The notes below the pieces were generated by a model that was not told the origin of the DNA, searched no databases, and saw only the letters and a program-made list of their open reading frames with translations. The position numbers were made by a program, and so were the translations under genes. DNA of 64,000 bases, from the NCBI GenBank assembly GCA_944989445.1, contig CALYLW010000425.1:248001-312000 (forward strand), read 5' to 3'. This stretch comes from Ampullaceana balthica. Taxonomy: Eukaryota; Mollusca; Gastropoda; Lymnaeidae. How positions within the stretch are numbered: the first letter of the stretch is position 1; the number at the start of each line of letters is the position of its first letter. Positions 13,800 through 64,000 of this stretch are shown here, piece after piece.

Positions 13800-13841
13800 G
13801 GTAGGGATAGCAGTTTAAAACAGTGTTTTCCATTTTAAAAA

Positions 13842-23399: not shown

Positions 23400-23437
23400 T
23401 TATCTGTCCACCTCTCCAAACACAATATCAAGTGTAC
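23400..23437 (-). CDS. NDUFS2: NDUFS2 exon 13 (C-terminus, stop)
   Basis: Completes Gly451 and encodes [11 protein letters not shown] followed by TAA at 23402-23400. This is the canonical C-terminus of the family. Confidence 0.95.
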
Positions 23438-26400
23438 CTGGACAAAAGGAAATCATTATTAATGCTAAACAAAAATTAAAAAAACAACAACTAATTAGCA
23501 TTTGTTCAGTCTGTACTACTAGACAATTAACATTGAGGCAAGTAGAATAACTACTAGACAATGAACATTGAGGCAAGTAGAATAACTACTAGACAATGAA
23601 CATTGAGGCAAGTAGAATAACTACTAGACAATGAACATTGAGGCAAGTAGAATAACTACTAGACAATGAACAGTGAGGCAAGTAGAATAACTACTAGACA
23701 ATGAACATTGAGGCAAGTAGAATAACTACTAGACAATGAACATTGAGGCAAGTAGAATAACTACTAGACAATGAACATTGAGGCAAGTAGAATAACTACT
23801 AGACAATGAACAGTGAGGCAAGTAGAATAACTACTAGACAATGAACATTGAGGCAAGTAGAATAACTAATAGACAATGAACATTGAGGCAAGTAGAATAA
23901 CTACTAGACAATGAACATTGAGGCAAGTAGAATAACTACTAGACAATGAACATTGAAGCAAGTAGAATAACTACTAGACAATGAACATTGAGGCAAGTAG
24001 AGACACTGGAAAAGTGAACCCAAATGAAGACATGGAAAAAAAAACAGGTTTAAAAATAACAAGAAAGTTCAGCCATCAATAATTTCTGCTCACTGCTTGT
24101 ATACATTATAAATATTTTAGAGAAACATTTAAGACAATATTTTTGTGTTTCTTATTCACTTATGCATTGCAGATGCTTTAATCTGGTTTCTGCTGAACAT
24201 TTAATTTTTAAAACTGTCCATGGAGGAGTGTAAAAATAATTATAAACATCAGACTTAGCTGTATTTATTTTAATTTATTACATGCCTGTGTGTCTTGCAT
24301 TAAAAAGCCAGAAGGGTTGATTGCAAACTTCTTAATTAACTAGGATTAGCCATTCTTGAAAAACATAATAGTAAATTGATAATTTATATAGCGCAGTACC
24401 TCAGCAAGCAAATGGGCTCACAGCGCCTTACATGAAACTAGTAATACACACAATTATCAATTCATTCAATAAACAACATTTATATCCTAAATACAACATA
24501 AAATGACATAACGGTGTATATAAGCTACGTTTATCATTGAAAGAAATGTTTGATAGTTATTTAATAAATTGTGAAAGTAAAGTTTGAAGAGATGTGTGTT
24601 TAGTGCAGTCTTGAAGGCCTTAGTAGTTGGAATACTGTGACTGTGTTATGGTAGACAATGCCATTGTTTGGCGGCACAAAAAGAGAAAGACCATTTCACC
24701 AAATATTTTAGTGTATGTCTTAGGAACAAGGAATACGTGTGTCTGCAGAAGAGCGTAGCTGACGAGTGGGTGAGTAGACAGAGAGAATTTCAGTATGATA
24801 GGAAGGCAAAAGTCAGAAAAGAAATTGTGATGGAGAAACAGACAGTTTGTAATCAATTCGTGCTTGTAAAGAGCCAATGAAGTTATTCAAAAGCAACAAT
24901 GTTCTTTATATTTTATGGCAGAACTCTTTCAGTGCCAGATTTTTTGTTTATCTTTTCCAACAAATCTCCATGCATCAATCAATTTGACATATTTGACTTT
25001 GAGTGCACCAAAAAATGTGAACAGTTACAAACCTATAATAGCCACAACATCAGCCAACATGTGTTTTTTGGACATCTTGTCGAGAGCAGCCTTTGAAAGA
25101 AATTTAAAAAATATCAGGGTTAGAGTATGGCATAGAAATACTGCAACACCAACAAAAATCAATCAACGTGAAATTTTACAAATTTATATATCAATTTTTT
25201 TATAAGTACTAAGGTTGTTAACGGTTAACCGGTCCTCAGATCAGGACCGGTCCCGTTTAATCAAGACCGGTTAACCGTAACTTCAATTAGTCGATACAGT
25301 CGAAACCGCTTAAGTCGACGGTGTTGGGGTATGAAAAATGGCGTCGAGATAACCGATGATCGAGTTAAAACGAAAACCAATATGGCGACAAAATATTAAC
25401 ATGTGCTTGAAATTTCTTTATGTACATGATTAATTAGTTAGCGTTTTAGTGATGGGATGATTAATCGGAATCGTATCGGAACCCTAATATTTCTTCACTC
25501 TTTCCTAAGGTTGTAATGACCGTTCGTTTTTAAGGACCGTTTAAAATTTAAATATAACCATGGTTCCCACTCAGGAAAACGGGAAAAAGTCGGGAATTCT
25601 TAAAAATAAATTCTCTGCCTTGAAAGTCGGGAAAAGTTATGACAAATCGGGAATTTATATATATATATATATAGACACATGTATATATATTTATGCCAAA
25701 GTAAAGGACTTTGATTACGTCTCTGTCATGTTTCGATTCCATTTAATGAAAAATAAGTTACCAGTTTATAATTGACTGCGCATGCGCTAAAAGGTCAAAG
25801 TTTACGCTTCGCCGTGTCACAGCCGCTCGCGTTTGTCGTCGTATCAGCGAATTTAAAATACAAATAAACAAATCAATCTGGTTATTTTAAGTTTAATGCT
25901 TTTGATGTGCAGGATATCTGTTACATAACTATCAGAACGTTCTCGAATTTCCTCAGTCAATCAAACTTGTAATATAAATAAAACTATTGTGGCCTTGACC
26001 GTTGATCACAGCACGCTGTGGGCTATGTGTACTGTGTTGGCCGGCAAATAAGCCTAAGCGAATTTTTTAAAAAATCATTCCTTATCAGAAATGATTTCAT
26101 TTCATCGCCACGCGCGTGTTAGTCACAGTCACGTATCCTACTGGTAACAAAGCAACAACAACAAACTTTTAAAAGAATAATAATTTTTTATTTAATTATA
26201 TAAAAACCACCGTCGATTCTCGATACAAACCTTTAATTTCATTTCTAAAGATATTCGTTTATCTTAAAAAATAAAATGATTAATGCATCAGAAAAGGAAT
26301 TAAGTTTAATAATAATATAACATGCACTGCGAAATAATGACGATTCACGACCTCTAACGCGATTGTCCAGTACCTCGGGTGAATACATACTCCATGGATA

Positions 26401-29400
26401 CACGTCGAATTATAATTCACACACGCAAAACATCCGGTAATTTTTATTGAAATCTTGTAGGATCACACAATAGCCGGAAGGCTAGAAGAAAAGCGAGATG
26501 TCAACACTGTTTTGAACTAAAAATGACAGAGTGCATTGCTAGGCCAACCGACGAGGATCGAGCTAACCAAGTTAAGTTGCAAATTTAGCCCTCTTTTGTG
26601 CTCGAGGTACCAGGGTTCGGCAACTTAGAAAAATCGAATTAGCCGATGAAAAAATGCTAAGACAAAGAGAGAATTTGGCGGTTCCAATAAAAAATGTCGA
26701 GTTAGTGGGGTGGTCGAGCTAACCGAGCTCGAGGTAAGTGGGTTCGACTGTATTAGTTTATTACCATGAGTTATTTTGTTGTTGTGTTACTGCAGAATAC
26801 CAGAGCCAATTCGCGAGCGACTGTGACATCAAAGCGCTTTCTTAATATTCTGGTCTATAAATATTTTTTAAAAATACACCTTCATCACTGTTAGTGGAGT
26901 TCGGCTAGAGAACAATTTTTTTTTAATTCGCTTAGTTGACGAAGCATAGTACGAGAACTAACACTAACACACAGCGGGGCGTGATGTCAAAATGTGAACA
27001 ACAGTCAAGGCCGTTAGTGTTACTATTTATATTACAAGAGGAAAGATGCACCTAACATAACAGACTGTTTACTGTTCCTCAAATTCCATTTCGGCCTAAT
27101 TTTTATATGGACAGTTTTCCTGCTAAGTATGTGCACGTCAAAGGCATTTGACTTAAATTACAACATTGATATAAAATTTGATGCTTTCTAAAAAAAAATT
27201 TTCTTGTGCATTTTAAAAGGAGCACAACGCATGAGAACTGAACGCTAGTGGGTCGTGACGTCACATGTTCTTTGAAAGCTAGTGGGTCGTGACGTCACAT
27301 GTTCTTTGAACACTAGTGGGTCGTGACGTCACATGTTCTTTGAACGCTAGTGGGTCGTGACGTCACATGTTCTTTGAACGCTAGTGGGTCGTGACGTCAC
27401 ATGTTCTTTGAACGCTAGTGGGTCGTGACGTCACATGTTCTTTGAACGCTAGTTGGTCGTGACGTCACATGTTCTTTGAACGCTAGTGGGTCATGACGTC
27501 ACATGTTCTTTGAACGCTAGTGGGTCGTGACGTCACATGTTCTTTGAACGCTAGTGGGTCATGACGTCACATGTTCTTTGAACGCTAGTTGGTCGTGACG
27601 TCACATGTTCTTTGAAGTCACCATCAGACGGCGCGAGGCAAAAATCTGATACACACTCTCTTTGTTGGTTTTAAACAAATAAGGAAAAATACAGACAGGA
27701 CAGTAAAGCTGTTTTTTAAGTTAACCAGTCCTCAAAAACGATCCTACTTGACATTTGATAACATGCCTGACATTTGATAACATGCCTGATATTTGATAAC
27801 ATGCCTGATATTTGATAACATGCCGTTTTAATACTTTTCATAAATAAATTTAAAAATTGAATATTAATTATTACAGTTTATTTATTTGTTCCGACGATTT
27901 AAATAAAAATTTAATTTTTTGTTTGCTTTGAATTCGCTATTTTGACGCCAGCGCCATAGAGAGCTAAACACTAGGGGCGGTACATATCAGGCGCTTGGAT
28001 ATCAAATCAGACGACGTGGGGCAAAAATTTTATGCATTCTCTTGTTAGTTCACAAAACATAGTAATAATACGGACAGACAGTTAACCAGTCTTTTTTTTC
28101 AACGATTAACCGGTCATCAAAAACGAGCGGTCTTAACAACCTTAATAAGTACTACCCTAGATTCTTACACTTAAACTTGAAATAAGGAGCAAAAAATTGA
28201 AACACATTTTTTAAATATTATATGTTTTAGGTCTATTTAAAAAATGAGTGGCCTCAAGGAAGAAAATAGAAGACAGCTGCATAAAAAGGGAGCTCACCAA
28301 ATGTGCAAATCCAGGAGCTTTAATTTTACATCTATAAGGTTTGTTGGTGCCATCTGATACCAGGTACACACCAAACTCACCCTGGAATCAAAGGAAACTC
28401 TTTATTGACAACAAATGGAGACTCTTTATAGACAATAAATGCAGACAAAATACAAGAAACTATTAGCTATTTTATTCACAAGTGAAAACAAAGAACATCT
28501 GCATGAAAACAATTGTGCAGGTTAGGTTTGTTGGTATGTACCATTGTGCAGGTTAGGTTTGTTGGTATGTACCATTGTGCAGGTTAGGTTTGTTGGTATG
28601 TACCATTGTGCAGGTTAGGTTTGTTGGTATGTACCATTGTGCAGGTTAGGTTTGTTGGTATGTACCATTGTGCAGGTTAGGTTTGTTGGTATGTACCATT
28701 GTGCAGGTTAGGTTTGTTGGTATGTAACATTGTGCAGGTTAGGTTTGTTGGTATGTACCATTGTGCAGGTTAGGTTTGTTGGTATGTACCATTGTGCAGG
28801 TTAGGTTTGTTGGTATGTACCATTGTGCAGGTTAGGTTTGTTGGTATGTACCATTGTGCAGGTTAGGTTTGTTGGTATGTACCATTGTGCAGGTTAGGTT
28901 TGTTGGTATGTACCATTATGCAGGTTAGGTTTGTTGGTATGTACCATTGTGCAGGTTAGGTTTGTTGGTATGTACCATTGTGCAGGTTAGGTTTGTTGGT
29001 ATGTACCATTGTGCAGGTTAGGTTTGTTGGTATGTACCATTGTGCAGGTTAGGTTTGTTGGTATGTACCATTGTGCAGGTAAGGTTTGTTGGTATGTACC
29101 ATTGTGCAGGTAAGGTTTGTTGGTATGTACCATTGTGCAGGTTAGGTTTGTTGGTATGTACCATTGTGCAGGTTAGGTTTGTTGGTATGTACCATTGTGC
29201 AGGTTAGGTTTGTTGGTATGTACCATTGTGCAGGTTAGGTTTGTTGGTATGTACCATTGTGCAGGTTAGGTTTGTTGGTATGTACCATTGTGCAGGTTAG
29301 GTTTGTTGGTATGTACTTCTGTTATAGATTAGAGCTGGGCTAAATTTGTTTGTGCTTCTGTTAGAGGGTTGAACTAGGATACATTTGTTGGTGATTCTGT

Positions 29401-32400
29401 TATAGGGTTGAACTAGGATACATTTGTTGGTGATTCTGTTATAGGGTTGAACTAGGGTAAATTTGTTGGTGCTTCTGTTATAGGGTTGAACTAGGGTAAA
29501 TTTGTTGGTGATTCTGTTATAGGGTTGAACTAGGGTAAATTTGTTGGTGTTTCTGTTATAGGGTTGAACTAGGGTAAATTTGTTGGTGCTTCTGTTATAG
29601 GGTTGAACTAGGGTAAATTTGTTGGTGCCTCTGTTATAGATTAGAGCTGGGGTAAATTTGTTGGTGCTTCTGTTATAGGGTTGAACTAGGGTAAATTTGT
29701 TGGTGCTTCTGTTATAGATTAGAGCTGGGGCAAATTTGTTGGTGCTTCTGTTATAGGGTTGAACTAGGATAAATTTGTTGTTGCTTCTGTTATAGGGTTG
29801 AACTAGGGTAAATTTGTTGGTGCTTCTGTTATAGGGTTGAACTAGGGTAAATTTGTTGGTGCTTCTGTTATAGGGTTAAACTAGGGTAAATTTGTTGTTG
29901 CTTCTGTTATAGGGTTAAACTAGGGTAAATTTGTTGGTATGTTCTTCTGTGATAAGTTTAAGGGTCATCATTAAATCCCTAAAAGTTTGGAATTTACAAG
30001 ATAATAAACTATAAAAAACAAAACTCTCTTTCCCAAGGTTTTCCCCATTCTTGAGAACACCATACAATGTAAGACTTCAGTGCTAGCCTTACTTACTTTA
30101 GGGGCTTCAACTGCAGCATACGTTGAGCCTGGCGGCACTTGGAAGCCTTCAGTGAACAACTTGAAATGATGGATCAGAGATTCCATGGAGTCCTGGGGAG
30201 AATGGATGGGAAAAGATTGAGTAAAACATTGGATGATGGCACATTGAGTAAAACATTGGATGATGGCACATTGAGTAAAACATTGGATGATGGCACGTTG
30301 AGTAAAACATTGGACGATGGCACGTTGAGTAAAACATTGGATGATGGCACATTGAGTAAAACATTGGACGATGGCACGTTGAGTAAAACATTGGACGATG
30401 GCACATTGAGTAAAACATTGGACGATGGCACGTTGAGTAAAACATTGGATGATGGCACATTGAGTAAAACATTGGACGATGGCACGTTGAGTAAAACATT
30501 GGATGATGGCACATTGAGTAAAACATTGGACGATGGCACGTTGAGTAAAACATTGGATGATGGCACATTGAGTAAAACATTAAAACAATCTAAGCACTGA
30601 GACAACCAACGTTACATTAATACATTTCTCACTCCAGTATGCAACACTTCATTCAAAAGAAAGGTTGTATCATTAACACTTTATAAAAACAGGGGACCAC
30701 ACAGTTTCATTCCTCACAGATTGGGTGTGTATTATGGATATACCAAACAGATTGGAGGCGTACTATGGATATACAGAACAGATTAGTGGTGTATTATGCA
30801 CATTCCAAACAGATTTACACCATTATTACAATAAATGTGTTCAGACCTTCATGTCTGCCCTACTTGGAGGAGTCACTTTGTTGTCATCTGTCTTGATCTC
30901 CCCAGTGGGCATCTTATTCATACACTGCAGTATAATCCTCAAACTTTGTCGCATTTCTTCCATTCTTATTAAATATCTGGCAATGTTGAAACCATTAGAT
31001 AGATTTATTGATCATAAGATAGATTTATAGATCCTAAGATATATAGATTTATAGATCATAAGATATATAGATTTATATATCATAAGATATATAGATTTAT
31101 AGGCCATGAGATAAGTTGATCTTTAACCCACAGGATATATAAATCACAGGATATATAAATCACACGATATATAAATCATAAGATAGACTAACCATAAGAT
31201 ATGTTCAACTTTTTCCTAGTGTATAGAAATGAAATTAACCTTCAAGATTTAAAATTGTCATATCATGGTCAAATATTCAATGTACCCAACAGGGTGTCAA
31301 GTGTAGTATGCTTCTCTATATATAGAATTCACCAGAACAACAACGAGTAGTGTGCAAATAAGCATGACGAATGACCCTTGCTGGGGTCGACCAATCATAG
31401 TATATGGTTGGCAAACAAGGTGGTGGAGAGGGGGGCATGTCTCGAGACCGACAATGCTTCTTAACTCAACAGCTCCTGAAGGGCTACTTCCGTATCTATT
31501 TCATATTCCAGACAAAAGGGAAGCAACTTCGTTAAGCTTTTGATTCCATTAAAAAAATGCTTTTCTTTTCTAAAGATATTCGTGTATCTTAAAAAATAAA
31601 ATGATTAATGCATCAAGTTTAATAATAATATAACATGCACTGCGAAAAATGACGATTAAAGACAGATAACGCGATTTTCGGCACCTCGGGTGAATACATA
31701 CTCGATAGAGACACGTCAAACTACAGTGGGGCCCACTTAACTTGAGGCCTGGTTAACTCACCAGCTCTATTAAGTCGACGTTTTTTTTTGGAACCGCCAA
31801 AATCTCTCTTTGTCTTTGCATTTTTTCAGCGGTTAATTCGATTTTTTAAAGTCGCCAAGCCCTAATATTTCGAACACAAAAGAGTTCCAAATTTTCAACT
31901 TAACGTCGGTTAGCTCGATCCCCGTCTGTTAGCCTAGCAATGCACTTTGGCATTTTTAGTTCAAAACAGTGTTGACATCTCGCTTTCTTCGAGACTTCTG
32001 GCTATTGTGTGATTCTACGAGATTTCAATAAAAATTACCGGATGTTTTTTCTTTCAATTTGATTCCGTTAGATTGAGTGTGTATTCACCAGAGGTACTCC
32101 AAATGGCGATAGTGGTCTTTAATGTGTCATTATTTCGCTGTGCATGTTATATTATTATTAAACTTAATTCATTTTCTGATGCATTAATCATTTTATTTTT
32201 TAAGATAAACAAATATCTTTAGAAAATAAAATAAAGGTTTGTATCGAATCGAGAATCGACGGTGGTTTTTATATTTTATATAATTAAATAAAAAATTATT
32301 ATTATTCTTTTAAAAGTTTGTTGCTTTGTTACCAGTAAGATACGTGTCTGTGACTAACACGCGCGTGACGCTGAAATCAAATCATTTTCTTAATATTCTA

Positions 32401-35400
32401 GTAGATATATAATATACACGTCATCACTGTTGTAGGTCGAATTCTGATAAGGTCAAGACTGCATTTGGTACTATTTATATTACAAGTTACACGTATCATT
32501 TGATTGACGGAGGAAATTCGAGTGCGGTCTCACAGTGACAGATATCCTGCACGTCAAAAGCATTAAACTTAAAATTACCATATTGATATGTTTATTTTTT
32601 TTTAATTCGCCGATTCGACGGGCATTGCAAACACGCGCCATGAGGCGAGGCGAAAAATTTGACCTTTAACGCATGCGCAGACAATTATAAACTGGTAACT
32701 TTTAAAAAAAAATTAAATTGAATCGAAACATGACCACAGAGGCGTAATCAAAGTCATTTTACTTTTACTTCGGCAAAAAATATATACAGTCGAACCCACT
32801 TACCTCAAGCTCGGTTAGCTCGACCGCCCCACTAACTCGACTTTTTTTTATTGGAACCGCCAAATTCTCTCTTTGTCTTAGCATTTTCTCATCGGCTAAT
32901 TCGATTTTTCTAAGTCGCCGAAACCTAATACCTCAAGCACAAAAGAGGGCCAAATTTGCAACTTAACGTTGGTTAGCTCGATCCTCGTCGGTTGGCCTAG
33001 CAATGCACTCTGACATTTTTAGTTCAAAACAGTGTTGACATCTCGCTTTCTTCGAGACTTCCGGCTACTGTGTGATTCTACGAGATTTCAATACAAATTA
33101 CCAGATGTTATTATCTTCTTTCAATTTCGATCCATGTGTGAATTAGATGTACTCACCCGAGGTGCCCGTAAATCAGCGTTAGCGGTCTTTAATCCGTCAT
33201 AATTTCGCAGTGCATGTTATATTATTATTAAACTTAATTCATTTTCTGATGCATTAATCATTTTATTTTTTTAAGATGAACGAATATCTTTAGAAATGAA
33301 AATAAAGGTTTGTATCGAGAATCGACGGTGGTTTTTATTTAATTAAATAAAAAATTATCATTCTTTTAAAAGTTTGTTGTTGTTTTGACTTTGTTACCAG
33401 TAAGATACGTGACTGTGACACTAACACGCGCGTGACGATGAAATCAAATCATTTTCTTAATATTCCAGTACATGTATATAATATTATTTATATACACGTC
33501 ATCACTTTTGTAGGTCGAATTCTGATAAGGAATGATTTTTTAAAAATTTCGCTTAGACTTAGTTGCCGGCCGAGGTCACACAGGCCACAGCGTGCTGTGA
33601 TCAACGGTCAAGGCTGAATAGTTTTATTTATATTACAAGTTTGATTGACTGAGGAAATTCGAGAGCATTCTGATAGTAACAGATATCCTGCACGTCAAAA
33701 GCATTAAACTTAAAATTACCATATTGATATGTATATTTTTATTTATTTTTATTCGCTGATTCGACGGACATTGCAAACGCTAGCGGCTGTGACACGCGCC
33801 ATGGGACGACCCGAGGCGAAAACTTTGACCTTTTAACGCATGCGCAGACAATTATAAACTGGTAACTTTTTTTTTATTAAATGGAATCGAAACATGACAG
33901 AGACGTAATCAAAGTCCTTTACTTCTGCATAAATATATATATAGAGAGAAAAATTCCCGATAAGTCATAACTTTTCCCGACTTTCAAGGCAGAGAATTTT
34001 TTTTTAAAGAATTCCCGATTTTTTGTCCAGTTTTCCTGAGTGGGAACCATGGTTATATTTAAATTTTAAACGGTCCTTAAAAACGAACGGTCATTACAAC
34101 CTTAGGAAAGAGTGAAGAAATATTAGGGTTCCGATACGATTCCAATTAATCGTCCCATCACTAAAGGTTCGATACGATTCCAATTAATCGTCCCATGACT
34201 AATTAACGCTAATTAATTAATCATGTACATAAAGAAATTTCAAGCACATGTGAATATTTTGACGCCATATTGGTTTTCGTTTTAACTCGATCATCGGTTA
34301 TCTCGAAGCCATGTTTCATACCCCAACGCTGTCGACTTAACCGGTTTCGACTGTATATATATAGATATATTCCTGACTAGTCATAACTTTTCCAGACTAT
34401 TTTCCGACCGGGAAAATTATTATAAGAGAATTCCCGACTGAGTGGGAACCCTGGGTTATATTTATATTGATTGCAGTCTCACCCCCATTACGTTATATTT
34501 AAACGGTCCTTAAAAATGAACTGTCTTTACCTTAGGAAAGAGTGAAGAAATATTTGGGTCCCGATATTCCGATACGATTCCGATTAAATCATTAATCGTC
34601 CCATCACTAAGTAACGCACATCATGTATATAATTATAAAGAAATTTCAAGCGCATGTTAATATTTTGCCGTATATTGGTTTTCGTTTAAGTCGTGATCGG
34701 TTATCTTGGCGCCATTTTTCATACCCCGAGGCCGTCGACTTAAGCGGGCCCCACTGTAATTCACACATGGATCAAAAGCAAAACAAGATAAAAACATCCG
34801 GTAATTTTTATTGAAATCTCGTAGAATCACACAATGGCTGGTAGTCTCGAGGAAAGCGAGATTTCGATGCTATTTGAAAAAAAAATGCGAGAGTGCGTCG
34901 CTAGGCGAACAGACACATTTGGTCGCATCCGTACGGACGCCTATAAAGACTTATTAAGTCGCATCAGGAGCTAATGAGTTAAGTTCAGTTTTATTGTTCC
35001 TTCACAGAATAATATGCATTTCGTAGTGTAGTGGTTATTACATCTGCCTAACACGCGGAAGGTCCTGGGTTCAAGCCCCAGCTGAAACATTAGTTTTTAA
35101 TTTTTTTAAATGTTTATGTTTGTGCCCCTTCTTTTCCCTCTTTCTTTGCAAAAATGACTTCGCAACGTGGCTGTAAAATTTGTTTCTCAATATTGGGATA
35201 ACTTCGGTGAAGTGCTCTCTGTTGTTCTCAGTGACGGAAAAGTAGTCATACACTCTCCTCAACAATACGTTCAGTACATGAATACTTCAGGAGTATATGG
35301 TGCAGAGGCAGAAATTATCGCGATGTCCGAAATACTTCCCGCAAGTATCATCATTTACTTCCAAGAACGTCCTCATACCTCTCCTAGAATTTACAATCCC

Positions 35401-38400
35401 AGTCAACATTTGTCTATAAACGTGCTCTTTAGCAGTCCTTCCGATCATGGCCATTACGAAGTTCTATTGCCTCTCACACATGATGACTTTCTGAATCCAT
35501 CCATTGACAACGTCAGTATATCCACACAAATTTCGCAACCACCTTATCACACTGATGTGACGGCAACTTGCCACTATCCTGATAAACATGTACAAACGCA
35601 TTTCAAAACACACTCCAATGAATACCGCAGAAGAATTTCAATCCATCATTTGTTCTAAATCATTCTGACTTTTCTGTTTCTTCATGCCGTAGTTTGTGTC
35701 AGTTCTCACCCCCTCCCCGTTTCTTAGCACTATCTATGTGCAAGTCTGCGGCGTGTGCTACACCGCGGGTCGTATCTAGTTAAAAAAGAATTATTTAAGA
35801 TTTAACTAAAATTATCATTAATGCCCCATAATTAATGAAGTATAATTGATTAAGTCACACAATCTATTTGGCAAGTTAATAAGACAAGATGCCATAAAGA
35901 AAATACAGATAACAGCATTTTGATAAATAAAAAATAACAGTATAATAGATAAAGAAGCATACTTGATACAAGAAGTAAACAAACAAGATGTAAAGAAACA
36001 AGAGGTAAACAAAAAAGGGGTAAAGAAACAATGGGTAAGAAAAAAGGGGTAAAGAAACAAGAGGTAAACAAAAAAGGGGTAAAGAAACAATGGGTAAGAA
36101 AAAAGGGGTAAAGAAACAAGAGGTAATAAACATGGGGTAAAGAAAAAAGAGGTGAACAAACAAGAGGTAAACAAAGGATTATTTCACCTGTCATAACAAT
36201 CTCCTCTATTGCCAACAGGGACGTCAAACTCCACCTCAGCGTATGAGTCATAGGGTTGAACCTTACGAAGATCCCATTTGATCCCTGAACCACGGAGCAT
36301 CACACCACTGTTAAACAAACCAAAAACTGTCTGCATTACTTACAGGGACATTCCTCACTCTAAACTTGTGGGGATATGTATAAAATAGTCTGCATTACTT
36401 ACAGGGACATTCCTCACTCTAAACTTGTGGGGATATGTATAAAATAGTCTGCATTACTTACAGGGACATTCCTCACTCTAAACTTGTGGGGATATGTATA
36501 AAATAGTTTGCATTACTTACAGGGACATTCCTCACTCTAAACTTGTGGGGATATGTATAAAATAGTCTGCATTACTTACAGGGACATTCCTCACTCTAAA
36601 CTTGTGGGGATATGTATAAAATAGTCTGCATTACTTACAGGGACATTCCTCACTCTAAACTTGTGGGGATATGTATAAAATAGTTTGCATTACTTACAGG
36701 GACATTCCTCACTCTAAACTTGTGGGGATATGTATAAAATAGTCTGCTTTACTTACAGGGACATTCCTCACTCTAAACTTGTGGGGATATGTATAAAATA
36801 GTCTGCATTACTTACAGGGACATTCCTCACTCTAAACTTGTGGGGATATGTATAAAATAGTCTGCTTTACTTACAGGGACATTCCTCACCTGCTAAACTT
36901 GTGGGGATATGTATAAAAGCTAAACATTTCAAGATGTGACAATTACTATATATGGTGGCTTTTTTTGAAAACCCATCACTAAATTTATTTCCAGGTAGTT
37001 TAAAACCTAAAATTTTAATTTAAATATGTATTCTATATAAATTACCCTAAAAGCTCCCAATAGACCCCAGTGCCATCCCACTATGAGAACAACTAAAGTC
37101 AAAGGTCAAGCCCACCTCATGCCATAGGTCAGTGCGTCCTCGGCCGAAATGATTCCAATGTCGATTGTCCTGGCCTTCCAGATCCTGTTCTCTGTCAGGA
37201 GGTCGTCCACTTCATCCAGCCTCTGGCTGAACTTGCTGGCCCATTCGTAGATGTCCTCCATGAGGCCCAGGGGCATATCCTGTGATAACATTTTAAAGGT
37301 TAATACGACAAGCTGGACAAACAAGAATAGCTGATGACCAGAACATATCTCAAACAGATGTAGATGATAAAATATTGTAAGGAATTTAGGTTAACTTGCA
37401 TTGACCGCCAAGAGCTGAGATCAAAGACTGACCGCCACTAGCGCGGAGCTGAGCGCGGGCCTTTAGATCTAGGGCGGTAAGAGGGTCTTGAGATAAGACG
37501 GGGACATGAAATAGAAGCAATCTTCTGACCCATGATTGGGAGTCCGTGGGACTGGAGGTGCGAAATGTGACGTTCTGGCACAAAATGTTATCTCGCTTGA
37601 ATTGGGAAATCAAAGAGGTAGCAGAGCGAGGAGACCGGAGGTGAAATGCCCCAAGGTAGATAGGATGACCAGACGTGCAGATGGTCTGGGTAGGGGTAGG
37701 TAAGTGGTGAGGGTCTCACCAGAGACGGTTATGTCAAACCGGCTCCACCCCCAGTCAATCTAGGAGGGCGGGACTTGATAATTGATGGACTGGAGACAAA
37801 TGGACTGTGACGGAAGTTGTTTGGACATAGACTGGGGAGTCAGTTATAGGACGGGACCAACTACGTACAGGGGAGACCGGAGAGCCAGGAGGGAAGAGAG
37901 TAGATGGTAGACAGAGACAGTAGAATTGACTTAGGACAGTTGTTTTTACTTATGTGACGTTAGAGTACAGTGTAGGTTGGAGTCAATGAGTGAAGCAATA
38001 AAGGAATCATACGTGTTCATGCAGTCTTGGAGTTTGGTGTTTGATTATGAGAAGACAAGTGTGACCAGTAAAATTAAGAAGAATTGAGTGAATGCAGAGA
38101 GTTAGTCACACACAAGGTTCTTTACAATATACAGGAGCTAACCTTCAAGTCCTCATAAGAAGCCTCTTTGATTCCAGCAAGTATGTTTGCTAAGTTAAGA
38201 GCAGGATTTCTTAAATAAAAGCCATATTTAAGTAAGAGAGCCATACAATTGGGGGTCTAAACTATATGCATTTTTATTTATATATTTTGGGACTTGATTG
38301 GTAAGATCAAAGCTGTTGGTAAGATCACAGCTGTTGGTAAGATCATAGCTGTTGGTAAGATCATAGCTGTTGATAAGATCACAGCTGTTGGTAAGATCAC

Positions 38401-40744
38401 AGCTGTTGGTAAGATCACAGCTGTTGGTAAGATCACAGCTGTTGGTAAGATCACAGCTGTTTTTGTTTAAAGCCGGAAACAACACAATGTTTTGAAATGC
38501 TCATGTATTTAGGACAATGTTCAATGCTCATGTATTTAGGACAATGTCCAATGCTCATGTATTTAGGACAATGTCCAATGTTCATGTATTTAGGACAATG
38601 TCCAGTGTTGTATGAATAGGAATAACCGTAATAATATTTTTAGGCCTTAGTGTCCTTGGGGGAATACCAAGCAGACAAGTCTGACAAGGCAATAGCAGAC
38701 AAGTCTGACAAAGCAATATATAATTATGCTGAAATTGACACAAATTTGTAACTGGTATTTCTTACCAAGGAAACACCACCCGGCCGGTAGTAAGCTGCAT
38801 GGAGGCGGGCCCCAGACACTCGTTCATAAAATTCCATCAGCTGAAATGACAGGTGAATACTGAACACTATGTTTTTTATAATTGTATGGTGGAAAGTTAG
38901 TTACAAAATGACAGGTGAACACTGAGTACTATGTTTTTTATTATTGTATGGTGGAAAGTTAGTTACAAAATCACAGGTGAACACTGAGTACTATGTTTTT
39001 TATTATTGTATGGTGGAAAGTTAGTTACAAAATCACAGGTGAACACTAAGTACTATGTTTTTTATTATTGTATGGTGGAAAGTTAGTTACAAAATCACAG
39101 GTGAACACTAAGTACTATGTTTTTTATTATTGTATGGTGGAAAGTTAGTTACAAAATCACAGGTGAACACTGATGACTAATGTAAACCATTACACTAGTA
39201 TGATGACTAATGTAAACCATTACACTAGTATGATGACTAATGTAAACCATTACACTAGTATGATGACTAATGTAAACCCTTACACTAGTATGATGACTAA
39301 TGTAAACCCTTACACTAGTATGATGACTAATGTAAACCATTACACTAGTATGATGACTAATATAAACCCTCACACTAGTATGATGACTAATGTAAACCAT
39401 TACACTAGTATGATGACTAATGTAAACAATTACACTAGTATGATGACTAATGTAAACCATTACACTAGTATGATGACTAATATAAACCATTACACTAGTA
39501 TGATGACTAATGTAAACCATTACACTAGTATGATGACTAATATAAACCATTACACTGGTATGATGACTAATGTAAACCATTACACTAGTACAGTCGAACC
39601 CACTTAACTCGAGCTCGGTTAACTCGCCCACCCTACTAACTCGACATTTTTTATTGGAACCGCCAAATTCTCTCTTTGTCTTAGCATTTTCTCATCGGTT
39701 ATTTCGATTTTTTTTAAAGTCTCTGAAACCTAATACATCGAGCACAAAAAGAGGGCCAAATTTGCAACTTAACGTTGGTTAGCTTGATTCTTCATCTGTT
39801 CGCCTAGCAATGCTCTTTGGCATTTTTAGTTCAAAACAGTGTTGACATCTCGCTTTCTTTGAGATTTCCGGCTATTGTTTGATTCTACGAGATTTCAATC
39901 AAAATTACCGGATGTTTTTTCTTTCAATTTGATTCCGTGTGTGAATTAGTTTAAGTATGTATTCACCCATGGTGCTCCAAAATCACGTTAGCTGTCTTAA
40001 ATCAGTCATTATTTCGCAGTGCATGTTATATTATTATAAAACTTAATTCATTTTCTGATGCATTAATCATTTTATTTTTTAAGATAAACGAATATCTTTA
40101 GAAATGAAAATTAAGGTTTGTATCGAGACTCGACGGTGGTTTTTATTTAATTAAATATAAAATTATTATTCTTTTAAAAGTTTGTTGTTGCTTTGTTACC
40201 AGTAAGATACGTGACTGTGACTAACACGCGCGTGACGGTGAAATCAAATCATTTTCTTAATATTCCAGTATATATATATATAATATACAAGTCATCAGTG
40301 TTGTAGGTCGAATTCTGATAAGGAATAATTTTTTTTAAAATTCGTTAAGACTTAGTTGCCGGCCGAGGTCTAACACACAGCGTGCTGTGATCAACGGTCA
40401 AGGCTGCAATAGTTTTATTTATATTACAAGTTTGATTGACTGAAGAAATTCGATAGCGGTCTGATAGTGACAGATATCCTGCAAGTCAAAAGCATTAAAC
40501 TTAAAATTACCATATTGATATGTTTATTATTATTTTTTGATAATTCGCTGATTCGACGGGCATTGCAAACGCGAGCGGCTGTGACATGCCACGCCACACC
40601 CACCATGGGACAAGGCAAGGCGAAAAATTTGACCTTAGTTTTAACGCATGCAATTATAAACTGGTAACTTATGTGTTTTTTTTTAAAAATGGAATCGAAA
40701 CATGACCACAGAGACGTAATCAAAGTCCTTTACGTCTGCATAAA

Positions 40745-40777
<33 letters not shown>

Positions 40778-43700
40778 AATTCCCGACTAGTCATAATTTT
40801 TCCCGAATTTCAAGGTAGAGAATTTTTTAAAAAGAATTCCTGACTTTTTCCCGTTTTCCTGACTGAGTTATATTTAAACGGTCCTTAAAAACGAACGGTC
40901 ATTACAACCTTAGGAAAGAGTGAAGAAATATTAGGGTCCCGATATTCCGATACGATTCTGATTAATCGTCCCATCACTAATTGACGCACATCATGTACAT
41001 AAAGAAATTTCAAGCACATGTTAATATTTTGCCGCCATATTGGTTTTCGTTTAACTCGACCATCGGTTATCTCGATGCAATTTTTCATACCCCAACGCCG
41101 TCGACTTAACCGGGTTCGACTGTATGATCATTAATGTAAACCATTACACTAGTATGATCATTTATGTAAACCATAACAATAGTTAAAACACTGAATCAAA
41201 ATATAAATAAATAACAGCTTGGCTACTGAAACTTGCAAGTGATGGTAGCTGATTGATTTTGATCAAATAAAAGATTTATGTTAGTATAGCCACACAAACA
41301 TTTACTAATGAATTAAGTCACAGAGTAAGGTAAGTCAAGTACAGGTGAAGGTAAGTCAAGTACAGGGTAAGGTAAGTCTAGTACAGGGTAAGGTAAGTCA
41401 AGTACAGGGTAAGGTAAGTCAAGTACAGGGTAAGGTAAGTCAAGTACAGGGTAAGGTAAGTCAAGTACAGGGTAAGGTAAGTCAAGTACCTTTTCTCTTT
41501 CTTCAAAGAGCCAGAAAAGTGGAGTCATGGCGCCCACATCAAGGGCATGGCTTCCAATGGCCATTATGTGGTTGAGAATACGTGTAATTTCACCAAACAG
41601 AGCTGGAAATATCAATTAAACAGGGATATATTTCTATTTCATGCTAAAAAAAAAGTAACTCTTAACTAGATTTTAAAAAATATATTTACAAGTTTTTTAA
41701 ACTCTAATTTCACTGTAAACCAAATTTAAATGTTTTTGTCATATTCTTCAGCTGATTAGTAATTCAAATAAAATCAATGGAAAATGTTTCATATCTCCTT
41801 AAAGAATTGAGTAAATTATTGTTGACCCACTTCTAATCATTTTAGTAAATTATTGTTGACCAACTTCTAATCATTTTAGTAAATTATTGTTGACCCACTT
41901 CTAATCATTTTAGTAAATTATTGTTGACCCACTTCTTATCATTTTAGTAAATTATTGTTGACCCACTTCTAATCATTTTAGTAAATTATTGTTGACCCAC
42001 TTCTAATCATTTTAGTAAATTATTGTTGACCCACTTCTAATCATTTTAGCTCTTGGTGGAACCTCAATGTTAAGTAGCTTCTCAATGGCCAGACAGTACG
42101 CCTGCTCACTGCACATCATTGACACGTAATCAAGGCGGTCAAAATAGGGCAGGGCCTGTTGAAGGGTAGCCATAGATCAGGACAAAGTGTTTAGTGTGAT
42201 CAAATGTAACATTACTGTAACTTTTATAGATCTCAGCTCTCCAGGTGATGTATATTCCAAAGGCAAACAAAAAGATAATCTAAAACATTTTTATGACAAT
42301 TGAAAACAGTTTTACTGCAAGCAGAAACATTTTTATGACAATCTAAAACATTTTTATAACAATCTAAAACAGATTTCTATGTCAGTTATTTTCAGCTTAA
42401 GTTAATAAATTATGTAATCAATTAAGAATATTAAAAATTGACAATCTTTAAAAAAAAATTAAATAAGATTAAACACATATAACAGCAACTATTTTAAAAT
42501 TATTTACCTGAATATAAGTTTTGTACTCAATGAGTTTCTCTGTTCCCCTGTGTAGGAGTCCGATATGAGGGTCAGCTCTAACAACTGTCTCCCCGTCCAG
42601 GGTGAGAACTAAGCGAAGCACGCCATGAGCAGCTGGATGCTGGGGGCCAAAGTTCATCACGATATTCTGTACCTGTCTTTCAACCTCAGGTTCTCGAACT
42701 GTTGAGATTATTGGAATAATTGTGATACAATAAACCCAATCATAATAATTGTATTTCTATAAATCTAACCATTAGAACAAAACTTATCTTTTAAATAGTT
42801 ATTTTTTAAAATATTTGACTAAAAATAAGATCAGACATGTTTGTTTAAACAGCTAATAAACTAATGTCATTTTCTGGAAGCTTGAGATCACTCTCTTAAA
42901 GCTTTGGCTAACACCTGGGCAACCTACTCTATCTGTTGAACAGTGCCATACAACATTGCCTGAGCGTAGGACTCACTCGCCGCCTTAACCTCCCTGGCTA
43001 TGTCTAGCGTGGGTACAAATTCAACAGGTCATCACCAATGTTCCCTCTAAGGTTCGTTGGTCCGTGTGCAAAGTAAAAAAACTAGTATGCAAAGTTGCGC
43101 AGCATCCATATTTTTGTGAAATATTTTACATTTGCTGCTTGTTAATTCTTAACTGCTGCGTGGCGTTGGTCAGATATCTGCACGGCCGCGCAGCTTAAAG
43201 GGAAAACTGGTCACCACTGTTAGGCTGCAGAGCTAATAATAAAATAATTCTTTTTGCTATACCACTCTGACTAAGTTGACAAATGCTACACCACTCTGAC
43301 TATGTTGACAAATATTATACCACCCTGACTAAGTTGACAAATGCTATACCACCCTGACTAAGTTGACAAATGCTATACCACCCTGACTAAGTTGACAAAT
43401 GCTATACCACCCTGACTATGTTGACAAATGCTATACCACCCTGACTAAGTTGACAAATGCTTACGGTTGTATGGGGGCAGTTTCCAGTCTGTATCTTCAG
43501 GATAAAAAATAGGTTTTTTATAAGGTTTCATGTAGTCCTCATCTGGCATCCAGACATGGGAGGCATAACTATAGGAATAAATTACTTGTTTTTAAAATAT
43601 TATAACTATTAAAGGGACACACAAGAATGATAATATATTATATTTATAATATAATGTTACTAAAATATAGAAATGCAAATTCAAATCCCACTTTCTTATG

Positions 43701-47077: not shown

Positions 47078-47714
47078 GTTTATAAATATACTTATGTTTG
47101 TGCATCATATTTGATTTTAAGGTTTCTGTTGAAATTACTTGATAATTTATATACAAAAAAAAATTGAAAATTTATCAAAATAAATAATTTATTGTAATTT
47201 AATTATGAAGAAAAGTTTCAAATTTAGTAAAGAAGTTAGTAAATTTTGTTCCTTTCCATATTGATTTTTTTAAAAAAGGTATGTTATAAATTCAAATGAA
47301 CAGCATCAATCGCATGTCTATTAGTTTGAATAACGTACAGATAAATACATGTATTAACATTTTTCGGTCGCCCCTTTCTCCGAATCCCTTATTTACAATG
47401 TAAATTATGTATCAGTCAAATAAACCCAATTTTAATTGCACTCAGAATAAATCTGACTTACATTTAAAATTAATTAAGACAAGCTAATTACTGATTATCA
47501 AGTTTATACTTAAAATCTAACTTAGGCCTAGTCTATATTAATTTTAAATGAAGTAATCAAAACTTTAAAACAATCTTATCTGATCGATGTCTGTCACTGC
47601 TCTCATTGAAGCTACATATGACATAAAAAATTGACATATGACCAAGTGCAATGAACATGGTATTCCAAAACCCCACAATATTAAAATAAATCAATCTGCA
47701 GGTAGTAGAAACAA
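47078..47714 (-). promoter_or_regulatory. NDUFS2: Presumed NDUFS2 5' UTR and promoter region
   Basis: Lies directly upstream of the NDUFS2 start codon and is AT-rich, with no CpG island or obvious TATA box. The assignment rests on position only. No other gene is seen. Confidence 0.35.
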
Positions 47715-48137
47715 CTACATTTCTGGAGAATATTCAAAACTGACAAGAATAACACCATTAGTTAAATCATTAAACTTTGAAACACTAGTGTCACTAGAGG
47801 ATAGAAGAACCAAGAGCAAAGTTGTAATCATACATAAAGCAATTAATTCTAATTTAGAAATGCAACACAAAGATAACTTAATACAACCCTCAGATAGACA
47901 TAAGAATAAAAACAACTTTCTTATTCCGTATGCAAGAACAAACACATATACATTTTCGTTCTTCACGTCCGGAATTCGGGCGTGGCTTGGGTTGCCTGAA
48001 GAAACCAGGAAAACCAACGCTTTATCAACATTTAAATCTCTAATAAAAATGCAGGACTAAACACAAACCATAGACAAGCGTAGGACGCAATAATCTTCTG
48101 TATAGAAGGAGCGTCTGTAAACAGATATGATATGATA
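47715..48137 (+). mobile_element. LINE copy D, 5'-truncated
   Basis: Open C-terminal frame 'SGEYSKLTRITPLVKSLNFE' to the stop after KMQD at 48060, then 'taggacgcaataatcttctg', 'gaaggagcgtctgtaaacag' and a gatatgatat tail. Starts abruptly inside the coding region, as expected of 5'-truncated LINE insertions. Confidence 0.88.
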
Positions 48138-48836
48138 TACATTTGCAATTTAAGCAATTTACAAGGCATGTTTGTAATCCGTCTAGCGTTAAAAAAATAA
48201 TAATTTAAAAAAAAATAATAATAAAATAAAAATTAAAAAAGTAAATAATCGAGCATTTGTTTATTATCACCCATTTTTATTTAATTATTTGTTTTAAAAT
48301 ATTTTAAAATTATTTAGATCAATCTGAACTGGTAAGAATATGCTCAATAAATACATCCTTACATCACTGGTTCTAAGACTTCCTTTTGGGCAGGGAGCAA
48401 ACTGTAATAATTAATGGATCTAAATCTGCACCAATAAATGTTAATTCAGGAGTTCCACAAGGAACTGTGCTAGGTCCCTTACTCTTTTTAATATATATAA
48501 ATGATTTACCCAACAACATCTCAACAGGAACAAAAGTTAGGTTATTTGCTGATGATTGTATAATCTATAGAACAATTAAATCAGAACAAGATAGCAACAT
48601 TTTACAAAAAGACCTAGATGAATTGGTAAAACATGGAACTGACTGAAGTATGAGTTTCCACCCAGAAAAGTGTCAACTGTTAAGAGTAACAAAGAAAAAG
48701 AAACAAATAAATTCAAAATATTTCATTCATGGAAAGGAACTAACCCAAACTAAAGATGCAAAATACTTAGGAGTCATAATAAATGAGAAATTATCATGGA
48801 ATCCCCATGTCAATGAAGTTATTAATAAAAACAACC

Positions 48837-49332
48837 CGTAAAAAACCAAGTTTTTGACTATAAATCCTTTACGTATGAGACGTAACTAAAAGAATGTTCA
48901 TTATAACACGCAGCGCAAGACCATCCAAAAATACAAAATTGCAGTTGTGTCGTAAAACGTGTTTAATATAATGCGCACCGATCAGGAATAGGTTTATAAA
49001 AAGTGTTGTCAGTAAAATACGCACCTTATTGCGCGACAGAAAGGTTGTTCAATATAATACGCACCGCGACGCTCTATCTCAAAAAATAGCATGATACATA
49101 GGAATAAATAAAATAATCTAAAAAATCAATAATTTAATTACGGTACATGCGATCGATCTGAAATTTTGATACATTGTTTTTATCATCGGTACGAAACTGC
49201 CTGCAATTTCAGCTCGCTATCTTGCGAGCAAGTGGGTTAAAAATCGATCAAAAGTTTTGGCGACAAGCAAGCAAGCAAGCAAGGTCGGTCGGTCGGTCGG
49301 CCGCAGACACCACGAGTTAATATAAAGGATTT
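48837..49332 (-). mobile_element. Helentron-like element, copy 2
   Basis: Reverse orientation. The 3' hairpin end (cgtaaaaaaccaagttttt) is at the left and the 5' end TTAATATAAAGGATTT at the right. It also holds (gcaa)n and (ggtc)n short tandem runs at 49267-49300. It interrupts LINE copy E at gttattaa. Confidence 0.6.
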
Positions 49333-50960: not shown

Positions 50961-52137
50961 GCATTCTTAATTTGATTCCTATGAAGACAAAGGAAAGGAA
51001 AAGTCCGTGGTAAAAACAGTGTAAACAATCTTCAATTTCAATACTATCAAACAAAAAAGAAAGCGTCAGTTTGATAAAGGGATATCAACAAAACAGCACT
51101 CTCATCGAGAAAAAAATTCAAGATTGGGGTATTTCTGGTCATCATTGACAAACTTTCTTAAGCCCTACAACATCGGTTAGGCGCATATAAAGACATCCAT
51201 GAGAAATGTGGCTTTCTTACAGACTTAAAGCCCAAATGGCTTTATATCTTTTAAAACATAACATACTGCCTCTTTCATTCCAGCCGTTTTTTTAAAGATC
51301 TCTCTGCTGCGAATGTTTCTTTTCTTTTTTCCTAATTTGTTTTAATGTTGTTTGTGTGTTGGGACTGTTTTATTATTGCAAGTTAACTGATATTTGTTTT
51401 AATAAGAGTTTTCGCGTTTAACGTATTTCATTGTATTTCTTAATTTCTTTCTAGATTACAAAATTTGTCATCTTTTTTTTTGTGACATAAAATCGTACAC
51501 AGTAAAATTTTAGGCTTGGGTGTCACCCCCTGATGGGCGTCACCCGGGGCGGCCCGCCCGCCCCGCCCCCCCCTAGTGACGCCACTGAATGTAATAAAGA
51601 TATAAAACTAAAATGCTATCTCACTTTGGTGAGACCTGTACTAGAATATGCATCTTCTGTATGGGACCCATCCACCAAAGAAAACATTGATAAACTAGAA
51701 CAAATCCAAAAAAGAGCTGCCAGATTCATTACTGGAGAATATTCAAACCTGACTAGAATAACACCATTAGTTAAATCATTAAACCTTGAAACACTAGAGG
51801 ATAGAAGAACCAAGAGTAAAGTAGTAATCATACATAAAGCAATTAACTCTAATTTAGAAATACAACACAAAGATAACTTAATACAACCCTCAGATAGACA
51901 TAAGGATAAAAACACCTTTCTTAGAACAAGCTCATACAAATTTTCGTTCTTCCCGTCCGGAATTCGGGCGTGGAATGGGTTGCCTGAAGAAACCAGGAAA
52001 ACCAACATTTATCAACATTTAAAACTCTAATAAGAATGCAGGACTAAACACAAACCATAGATAAGCGTAGGACGCAATAATCTTCTGTATAGAAGGAGCG
52101 TCTGAAGCAGATAAGATAAGATAAGATAAATATATGT

Positions 52138-54850: not shown

Positions 54851-54860
54851 TCCACAGACA

Positions 54861-57800
54861 GTTTATGACAGACGGAGATAGTTTATGACAGAACGAGATA
54901 GTTTATGACAGACAGAGATAGCTTATGACAGATGGTGATAGTTTATGACAGAAAGATTTAGTTTATGACAGACGGAGATAGTTTGTGACAGACGGAGACA
55001 ATTTATGACAGACGGAGATAGTTTATGACAGACAGAGATAGTTTATGACAGACAGAGATAGTTTATGACAGAGAGAGATATTTTGTGACTGACCGAGATA
55101 GTTTATGACATCTGGAGATAGTTTATGACAGACAGTGATATTTTGTGACTGACCGAGGTAGTTTATGACAGCTGGAGATAGTTTATGACAGACAGAGATA
55201 GCTTATGACCGACGGATATAGTTTATGACAGACAGAGATAGCTTATGACCGACGGAGATAGTTTATGTCAGACAGAGATATTTAATTACAGACAGAGATA
55301 GTTAATGACAGACGGAGATAATTTATGACAGATTGAGATAGTTTATGACAGAATGAGATAGTTTATGACAGAATGAGATAGTTTAGGACAGAATGAGATA
55401 GTTTATGACAGAATGAGATAGTTTATGACAGACAGAGATATTTAATTACAGACAGAGATAGTTAATGACCGACGGAGATAATTTATGACACATTGAGATA
55501 TTTTACGACAGAATGAGATAGTTTAGGACAGAATGAGATAGTTTAGGACAGAATGAGATAGTTTATGGCAGAATGAGATAGTTTATGACAGAATGAGATA
55601 GTTTATGACAGAATGAGATAGTTTATGACAGACTGAGATAGTTTAGGACAGACAGAGATAGTTTATGACAGACAGAGATAGTTTATGACAGACAGAGATA
55701 GCTTATGACCGACGGAAATAGTTTATGTCAGACAGAGATATTTAATTACAGACAGAGATAGTTAATGACAGAAGGAGATAATTTATGACAGATTGAGATA
55801 GTTTATGACAGAATGAGATAGCTTATGATAGAATGAGATAGTTTAGGACAGACAGAGATAATTTATGACAGACAGAGATAGCTTATGACAGACGGAGATA
55901 GTTTATGACAGACAGAGATATTTAATTACAGACAGAGATAGTTAATGACAGACGGAGATAATTTATGACAGACAGTGATATTTTGTGACTGACCGAGGTA
56001 GTTTATGACAGCTGGAGATAGTTTATGACAGACAGATATAGTTTATGACCGACGGAGATAGTTTATGACAGACAGAGATAGCTTATGACCGACGGAGATA
56101 GTTTATGTCAGACAGAGATATTTAATAACAGACAGAGATAGTTAATGACAGACGGAGATAATTTATGACAGATTGAGATAGTTTATGACAGAATGAGATA
56201 GTTTATTACAGACTGAGATAGTTTATGACAGAATGAGATAGTTTATGACAGAATGAGATAGTTTATGACAGAATGAGATAGTTTATGACAGAATGAGATA
56301 GTTTATGACAGAATGAGATAGTTTATGACAGAATGAGATAGTTTATGACAGAATGAGATAGTTTATGACAAAATGAGATAGTTTATGACAGAATGAGATA
56401 GTTTATGACAGAATGAGATAGTTTATGACAGAATGAGATAGTTTATGACAGAATGAGATAGTTTATGACAGAATGAGATAGTTTATGACAGAATGAGATA
56501 GTTTATGACAGACTGAGATAGTTTATGACAGACAGAGATAGCTTATGACAGACGGAGATAGTTTATGACAGACAGAGATATTTAATTTCAGACAGAGATA
56601 GTTAATGACAGACGGGGATAATTTATGACAGATTGAGATAGTTTATGACAGAATGAGATAGTTTAAGACAGAATGAGATAGTTTATGACCGAATGAGATA
56701 GTTTATGACAGAATGAGATAGTTTATGACAGAATGAGATAGTTTAGGACAGAATGAGATAGTTTATGACAGAATGAGATAGTTTATGACAGAATGAGATA
56801 GTTTATGACAGAATGAGATAGTTTATGACAGAATGAGATAGTTTATGACAGACAGAGATAGCTTATGGCAGAATGAGATAGTTTAGGACAGAATGAGATA
56901 GCTTATGACATAATGAGATAGTTTATGACAGAATGAGATAGTATATGACAGAATGAGATAGTTAAAGACAGAATGAGATAGTTTATGACAGAATGAGATA
57001 GTTTATGACAGAATGAGATAGTTTATGACAGAATGAGATAGTTTATGACAGAATGAGATAGTTTATGACAGAATGAGATAGTTTATGACAGACAGAGATA
57101 GCTTATGGCAGACGGAGATAGTTTATGACAGACAGAGATATTTAATTACAGACAGAGATAGTTTATGACAGAATGAGATAGTTTATGACAGAATGAGATA
57201 GTTTATGACAGAATGAGATAGTTTATGACAGACAGAGATAGTTTATGACAGACAGAGATAGTTTATGACAGACAGAGATAGTTTATGACAGAATGAGATA
57301 GTTTATGACAGAATGAGTTAGTTTATGACAGAATGAGATAGTTTATGACAGACAGAGATAGTTTATGACAGAATGAGATAGTTTATGACAGAATGAGATA
57401 GTTTATGACAGAATGAGATAGTTTATGACAGAATGAGATAGTTTATGACAGAATGAGATAGTTTATGACAGAATGAGATAGTTTATGGCAGACAGAGATA
57501 GTTTATGACAGAATGAGATAGTTTATGACAGACAGAGATAGTTTATGACAGAATGAGATAGTTTATGACAGAATGAGATAGTTTATGACAGAATGAGATA
57601 GTTTATGACAGAATGAGATAGTTTATGACAGACAGAGATAGCTTATGGCAGACGGAGATAGTTTATGACAGACAAGAGATATTTAATTACAGACAGATAG
57701 TTTATGACAGAATGAGATAGTTTATGACAGAATGAGATAGTTTATGACAGACAGAGATAGCTTATGGCAGACGGAGATAGTTTATGACAGACAGAGATAT

Positions 57801-63800: not shown

Positions 63801-64000
63801 AATGAGATAGTTTATGACAGAATGAGATAGTTTATGACAGAATGAGATAGTTTAGGACAGAATGAGATAGTTTATGACAGAATGAGATAGTTTATGACAG
63901 AATGAGATAGTTTATGACAGACAGAAATAGTTTATGACAGAATGAGATAGTTTATGACAGACAGAGATAGTTTATGACAGAATGAGATAGTTTAAGACAG
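54861..64000. repeat. 20-bp satellite (GATA-containing), over 9.1 kb, runs off right edge
   Basis: About 457 copies of gtttatgacagaatgagata and variants (gacagacagagata, gcttatggca, tttaattaca, gtttaggaca). Near-perfect 20-bp phasing holds for kilobases, with rare 1-10 bp slips (for example at about 57675, 61230-61270 and 62430). Variant units form recurring higher-order blocks. Each unit contains AGATAG, a WGATAR match. It is non-coding. Confidence 0.98.

Follow-up and report, generated by a model that had tools for sequence, protein, structure and literature searches.

A 34-bp minisatellite across the exon 4 donor of NDUFS2 in the snail Ampullaceana balthica, and its likeness to the mirages of amphioxus

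Arrays of exon-intron boundaries have been described in amphioxus, where they were named mirages; according to the two reports, RT-PCR suggested regular splicing and a link with intron gain was proposed (PMC3087553, PMC3902484). Genes with mirages include Adh3, the globins BflGb6 and BflGb9, troponin C and PGBD5 (PMC3087553, PMC3902484), and the unit length of the Adh3 mirage is 10 to 72 bp, as quoted in PMC3087553. The array considered here, at the junction of exon 4 and intron 4 of a snail NDUFS2 gene, resembles these mirages: minisatellite-like copies run across a donor or acceptor boundary, many of them with an AG or a GT signal, and the authentic copy lies at the edge. Each unit combines an exon end with an intron start, the copy at the edge is the one that the protein requires, and the 34-bp unit falls within the range of 10 to 72 bp. 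Judged by its sequence, the NDUFS2 array is a mirage, of a kind already known from amphioxus. The two cases differ in that one host is a cephalochordate and the other a snail, and in that several such arrays occur here in a small gene set and are known from genomic sequence alone. One of them, an intron array of 56 copies in a chitinase-like gene, is much longer than the amphioxus mirages described there, and the in-register donor soon disappears from its copies. No report of a mirage in a mollusc was found among the literature matches listed, which cover few subscription papers and are weak evidence of absence.

Three further systems bear comparison. In potato, intron gain arose from duplication over an intron-exon boundary (PMC4974935), and in humans, repeats lying at such boundaries may give rise to introns (PMC2812944). 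There, as in NDUFS2, a boundary duplication supplies spare splice signals; the difference is that the NDUFS2 copies remain inside the old intron, and no new intron was found at this gene, since the conserved protein results only from a direct join of exon 4 to exon 5. Intron 4 of DOK7 has competing tandem 5' splice sites under the control of SRSF1, and SRSF1 and hnRNP A1 shift the choice among competing donors (PMC5585400). Both genes thus set several donors against one acceptor, but DOK7 has two unlike sites controlled by SRSF1, whereas NDUFS2 has seven that are nearly identical. The earthworm metallothionein gene has intronic minisatellites and duplicated exon copies that are missing from the transcript (PMC12783039); it shares with NDUFS2 the minisatellite arrays within an intron of a spiralian gene and differs in that the accessible part of that paper mentions no array across a splice site.

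The NDUFS2 gene and its exon 4 array

The window, by which we mean the whole stretch of 64,000 nucleotides analysed, carries NDUFS2, the 49-kDa subunit of complex I, on its minus strand. The preliminary description had named this gene, and the identification was borne out by a spliced model of 430 codons, whose closest protein among 7999 homologues scored is NDUFS2 of Biomphalaria glabrata (92% identity); the named gastropods ranked lower are Arion (88%) and Elysia (85%). This ranking places the host among the gastropods, near Biomphalaria. With the B. glabrata protein as query, a spliced protein-to-DNA aligner purpose-written for the present analysis returned the identical 11 introns with zero gaps, and model and aligner both placed the end of exon 4 at 42035, as had been proposed. 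Exon 1 was not located, and the numbering used here is that of exons 2 to 13. The features are as follows.

23400..43568, minus strand: NDUFS2 exons 2 to 13 (12 exons), a 430-codon open frame once spliced
43255..43461, minus strand: 29-bp array, 7.1 copies, starting at nt 4 of NDUFS2 intron 2
42035..42155, minus strand: NDUFS2 exon 4, 121 nt, coding for ...PPRAKMIR and the first nt of a Thr codon
41810..42049, minus strand: 34-bp minisatellite, 7.1 copies (TRF), beginning 15 nt within exon 4
42029..42034, minus strand: authentic 5' splice site GTGGGT (GAA/GTGGGT) in unit 1, U1 duplex −4.9 kcal/mol
42012..42014, minus strand: in-frame TAA, intron nt 21-23, upstream of the second donor
41825..42000, minus strand: six additional donors, starting at 42000, 41966, 41932, 41898, 41864 and 41830
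41490..41602, minus strand: NDUFS2 exon 5 (spliced model and aligner)
41315..41489, minus strand: 21-bp array, 8.3 copies, starting at nt 1 of NDUFS2 intron 5
38844..39173, minus strand: 62-bp array, 5.3 copies, ending 3 nt upstream of the NDUFS2 exon 6 acceptor

The end of exon 4 and its 5' splice site are amplified seven-fold, in agreement with the earlier claim. TRF gave the array a 98% match and a score of 466 (threshold 50), and donors recur at 34-nt spacing with a GT in every unit (7/7); six read GTGGGT, and the one starting at 41864 reads GTTGGT, which is weaker. Each unit is made of 15 exon nt (CTAAAATGATTAGAA), where 13 had been given, and 19 intron nt. Unit 4 has ATGATAAGAA, and both it and unit 6 have private substitutions. 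In the 1.097-Gb assembly (3363 contigs), the 19-mer AAAATGATTAGAAGTGGGT has five exact matches, all inside the array, and this confinement argues for local expansion; a dispersed repeat family was rejected on the same zero-mismatch search. Since the five matches fall within a single array, a second haplotype copy was not seen in this one assembly. A CT dinucleotide precedes the AAAATG of unit 1 and also closes the last unit, which would be consistent with a duplication event between two short stretches of identity. Tandem arrays are prone to assembly error, and the copies might on that ground be an assembly artefact; we find this barely credible, as the private substitutions in units 4 and 6 argue against simple stutter and distinct arrays with the same layout lie on other contigs.

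Unit 1 is the true exon/intron junction, as first described. Joined to exon 5, it codes for KMIRTLFGEITR, the same as the B. glabrata and Arion sequence at that place; it alone joins without a stop, and only this first copy gives the conserved protein. When the best 120 of the 7999 homologues were scanned with a permissive regular expression, 119 had no insertion longer than 2 residues there, and the sole miss, P0186, lay outside the fit of the expression. Translation continued beyond the first donor gives SGSTIIY and then meets the TAA stop. Because this TAA, within the first 34 nt, precedes the second donor, all six distal donors would lead to the same truncated protein, including those three and six units away, which had been expected to keep the frame. 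The truncated transcript is likely to undergo NMD, as many introns lie downstream. Splice noise, decoy binding of U1 and NMD-prone isoforms, which the preliminary description had raised, would be conjectural roles of the copies.

Ranked by the energy of its duplex with the 5' end of U1, the intron 4 donor is the third weakest of the 11 in NDUFS2 (−4.9 kcal/mol), and 9.6% of 1135 intronic GT sites, array copies counted in, are equal or better. Because the donor is weak, its strength does not by itself ensure that the first copy is chosen; with copies so alike, what would have to decide is where each lies relative to the exon body, presumably through exon definition. The weak donor, together with a single in-frame TAA common to all distal donors, could also point to a regulatory device, in which leak to a distal donor yields a truncated, NMD-prone mRNA and the output of NDUFS2 is thereby adjusted through the number of copies. 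We consider such a device very unlikely, as comparable arrays occur in genes of the chaperonin, bestrophin-like and chitinase-like kinds; the donors of some are strong, and two of the arrays lack an early stop.

Other repeats in the window were recorded in passing. On the sense strand, the 21-bp array of intron 5 (41315-41489) repeats ACTTACCTT, which resembles the U1 5' end, and an 18-bp array in NDUFS2 intron 6 (38298-38461) repeats TCTTACCAA, which is exactly complementary to the exon 6 donor TTG/GTAAGA; it is possible that the repeat units of introns 5 and 6 pair with donors. A 20-bp satellite of about 573 copies (11.4 kb) occupies window positions 54856-64000 and continues to position 314297 of contig C425. 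Long open frames at 4965-6249, 13839-15237, 47635-48841 and 51506-52030 look, by eye, like non-LTR reverse transcriptase and a gag-like protein.

Junction-spanning arrays in other genes and their chance expectation

Tandem arrays (TRF, period at least 10) cover 35% of the 264 kb around and including the window. We modelled CCT1 to CCT7, two bestrophin-like genes (a and b) and one chitinase-like gene, which together with NDUFS2 make 11 genes with 107 introns; the set is non-random, consisting of conserved chaperonins and window neighbours, with the bestrophin-like and chitinase-like genes on the same contig as NDUFS2. The CCT, bestrophin and chitinase models were built on human proteins, and their intron numbers count only the modelled part; the NDUFS2 34-bp array is in model intron 3. 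The seven CCT genes were modelled among the places matched by PF00118 (51 matches), with C73, C114, C1327, C485 and C20 left out. C73 has one weak CCT match, and long, one-piece, locally intronless chaperonin-family matches lie at C1327:157272-158021, C485:322747-324375 and C20:2235239-2236198. The first of these has two internal stops and the other two are open; they may be retrocopies, other chaperonin genes or foreign DNA.

Arrays make up 15.9% of intron nt in the 11 genes against 1.6% of exon nt, and none is wholly within an exon. An array was counted as spanning if it took in 5 or more exon nt; on this definition, five of the ten other modelled genes have junction-spanning arrays, and the layout is thus not special to NDUFS2.

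Donor-spanning, NDUFS2 model intron 3: 34 bp, 7.1 copies
Donor-spanning, CCT2 intron 9: 21 bp, 5.1 copies
Donor-spanning, CCT2 intron 11: 49 bp, 9.0 copies
Donor-spanning, bestrophin b intron 3: 28 bp, 11 copies
Donor-spanning, chitinase intron 1: 28 bp, 56 copies
Donor-spanning, chitinase intron 5: 45 bp, 5.8 copies
Acceptor-spanning, CCT2 intron 13: 79 bp, 2.0 copies
Acceptor-spanning, CCT1 intron 10: 67 bp, 7.0 copies
Acceptor-spanning, bestrophin a intron 2: 51 bp, 4.0 copies
Acceptor-spanning, bestrophin b intron 8: 40 bp, 2.1 copies

The GT is kept in register in 7/7 copies in NDUFS2, 9/9 in CCT2 intron 11 and 4/5 in CCT2 intron 9; the 11-copy array of bestrophin b intron 3 has it in all nine printed copies, each reading CAG/GTAATG. 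In the chitinase-like gene the register drifts, and GT is present in 3/9 printed rows of intron 1 and 2/6 of intron 5. On the acceptor side, six acceptors of CCT1 intron 10 are identical over 42 nt (22 before and 20 after the cut), and the three upstream copies in bestrophin a intron 2 are without AG in strict register. When the array of bestrophin a intron 7, which shares just 2 exon nt, is added to the six donor-spanning ones, five of the seven have a stop ahead of the second donor. An early stop is lacking in the other two, CCT2 intron 9 (period 21) and chitinase intron 5 (period 45), and both periods are multiples of three. This pattern fits a filter on harm, in numbers too few for proof. 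At CCT2 model intron 9, the exon end has a 9-nt tandem duplication that inserts VVT relative to the human protein and adjoins the 21-bp donor array, which hints that exons can incorporate in-frame copies. In the chitinase-like gene, model introns 1, 3 and 6 consist largely of arrays (28 bp, 56 copies; 24 bp, 113 copies; 39 bp, 29 copies), the last of which nearly fills intron 6 from nt 27 to the acceptor.

For the chance expectation we used a neutral-birth null, under which any unit-length segment touching an intron may duplicate (73 arrays; 107 introns, 44 of them with arrays). Across the 11 genes, 6 donor-spanning arrays were seen against 3.03 expected (p=0.075) and 4 acceptor-spanning arrays against 3.03 (p=0.36); a first pass over eight genes had given 3 donors against 2.22. 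The totals are thus not far from what neutrality predicts. Without NDUFS2, the counts were 5 donors against 2.10 (p=0.049) and 4 acceptors against 2.10 (p=0.15), or 9 against 4.19 when pooled (p=0.018). Removal of one gene at a time moved the donor p between 0.047 and 0.218, with 0.218 reached without CCT2 or without chitinase and 0.121 without bestrophin b, and present-day intron lengths lower the expectation to 1.80 spanning arrays per side. Arrays of at least 3 copies gave 6 donors against 2.07 (p=0.013) and 2 acceptors against 2.07. An earlier scheme, within-intron shuffling, had given donor p values of 0.0006 to 0.003 for NDUFS2 alone, and for its acceptors 5 against 1.30 within 32 nt (p=0.003) and p=0.15 within 3 nt. 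This scheme bars arrays from exon edges and uses present-day intron lengths; the neutral-birth null took its place, and the signal is weaker under it.

These counts bear on the idea that minisatellites of this genome arise preferentially at 5' splice sites, for example because R-loops or nicks form, or replication stalls, at the exon-intron step. Within 15 nt of a donor there are 9 array edges against 3.33 expected (p=0.004), compared with 4 for acceptors (p=0.43); arrays of at least 3 copies without NDUFS2 span 5 donors against 1.24 expected (p=0.004; acceptors, 2 against 1.24); and three NDUFS2 arrays begin at −15, +1 and +4. However, the main donor count stays at p=0.075 and is weakened by the removal of single genes, the edge count without NDUFS2 falls to 5 against 2.25 (p=0.064), the NDUFS2 acceptors are enriched as much as the donors within 32 nt, and the count thresholds were picked in the course of the analysis. 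A donor-like motif was found in 10 of 52 repeat units of the window against 4.2 in shuffles (p=0.007), an excess that was not reproduced at the same threshold in 151 arrays outside the window (12 against 8.9 in shuffles, p=0.15) and at four thresholds there (p=0.14 to 0.23). Against non-array DNA, the outside arrays gave p=0.003 to 0.04. A general excess of donor-like motifs in repeat units was dropped because it did not repeat against shuffles outside the window. Taken together, we regard a preferred birthplace at donors as doubtful. We are equally hesitant about a broader version, in which the 5' splice site seeds minisatellites, many introns carry donor or acceptor arrays whose exon-proximal copy is chosen by position, and arrays persist only where they bring an early stop or a multiple-of-three addition. 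The donor-side excess in some cuts and the NDUFS2 shuffling mean that array births near exon edges may be not fully random, and, fairly read, the counts indicate a neutral origin that may be biased toward exon edges and most of all toward donors.

Origin of the array and what it offers

The explanation that we favor, and hold to be quite likely, is that tandem duplications happened to straddle a splice site and were tolerated because the exon-edge copy still serves, which makes the array a mirage of mostly neutral origin. A 34-bp segment across the exon 4/intron 4 junction would have been duplicated in tandem, with breakpoints at the two CT dinucleotides, and would then have grown to seven copies, as have other minisatellites of the same snail genome. 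The array would be tolerated because the exon-edge copy retains the original exon end and donor; the copies being locally alike, this exon-proximal copy would be expected to win by exon definition. Any leak to a distal donor would run into the TAA in the first unit and end in truncation, probably followed by NMD. The 34-bp array is probably a by-product of rampant minisatellites.

Arrays at exon edges are natural experiments on splice-site choice among near-identical copies, of which only the one at the exon edge yields the protein, and counts of RNA junctions over them would gauge how far position alone decides and how much is wasted. The snail arrays add a mollusc to amphioxus as a host of mirages, and they offer a test of whether splice sites are where minisatellites arise and whether these contribute to intron gain or exon growth.
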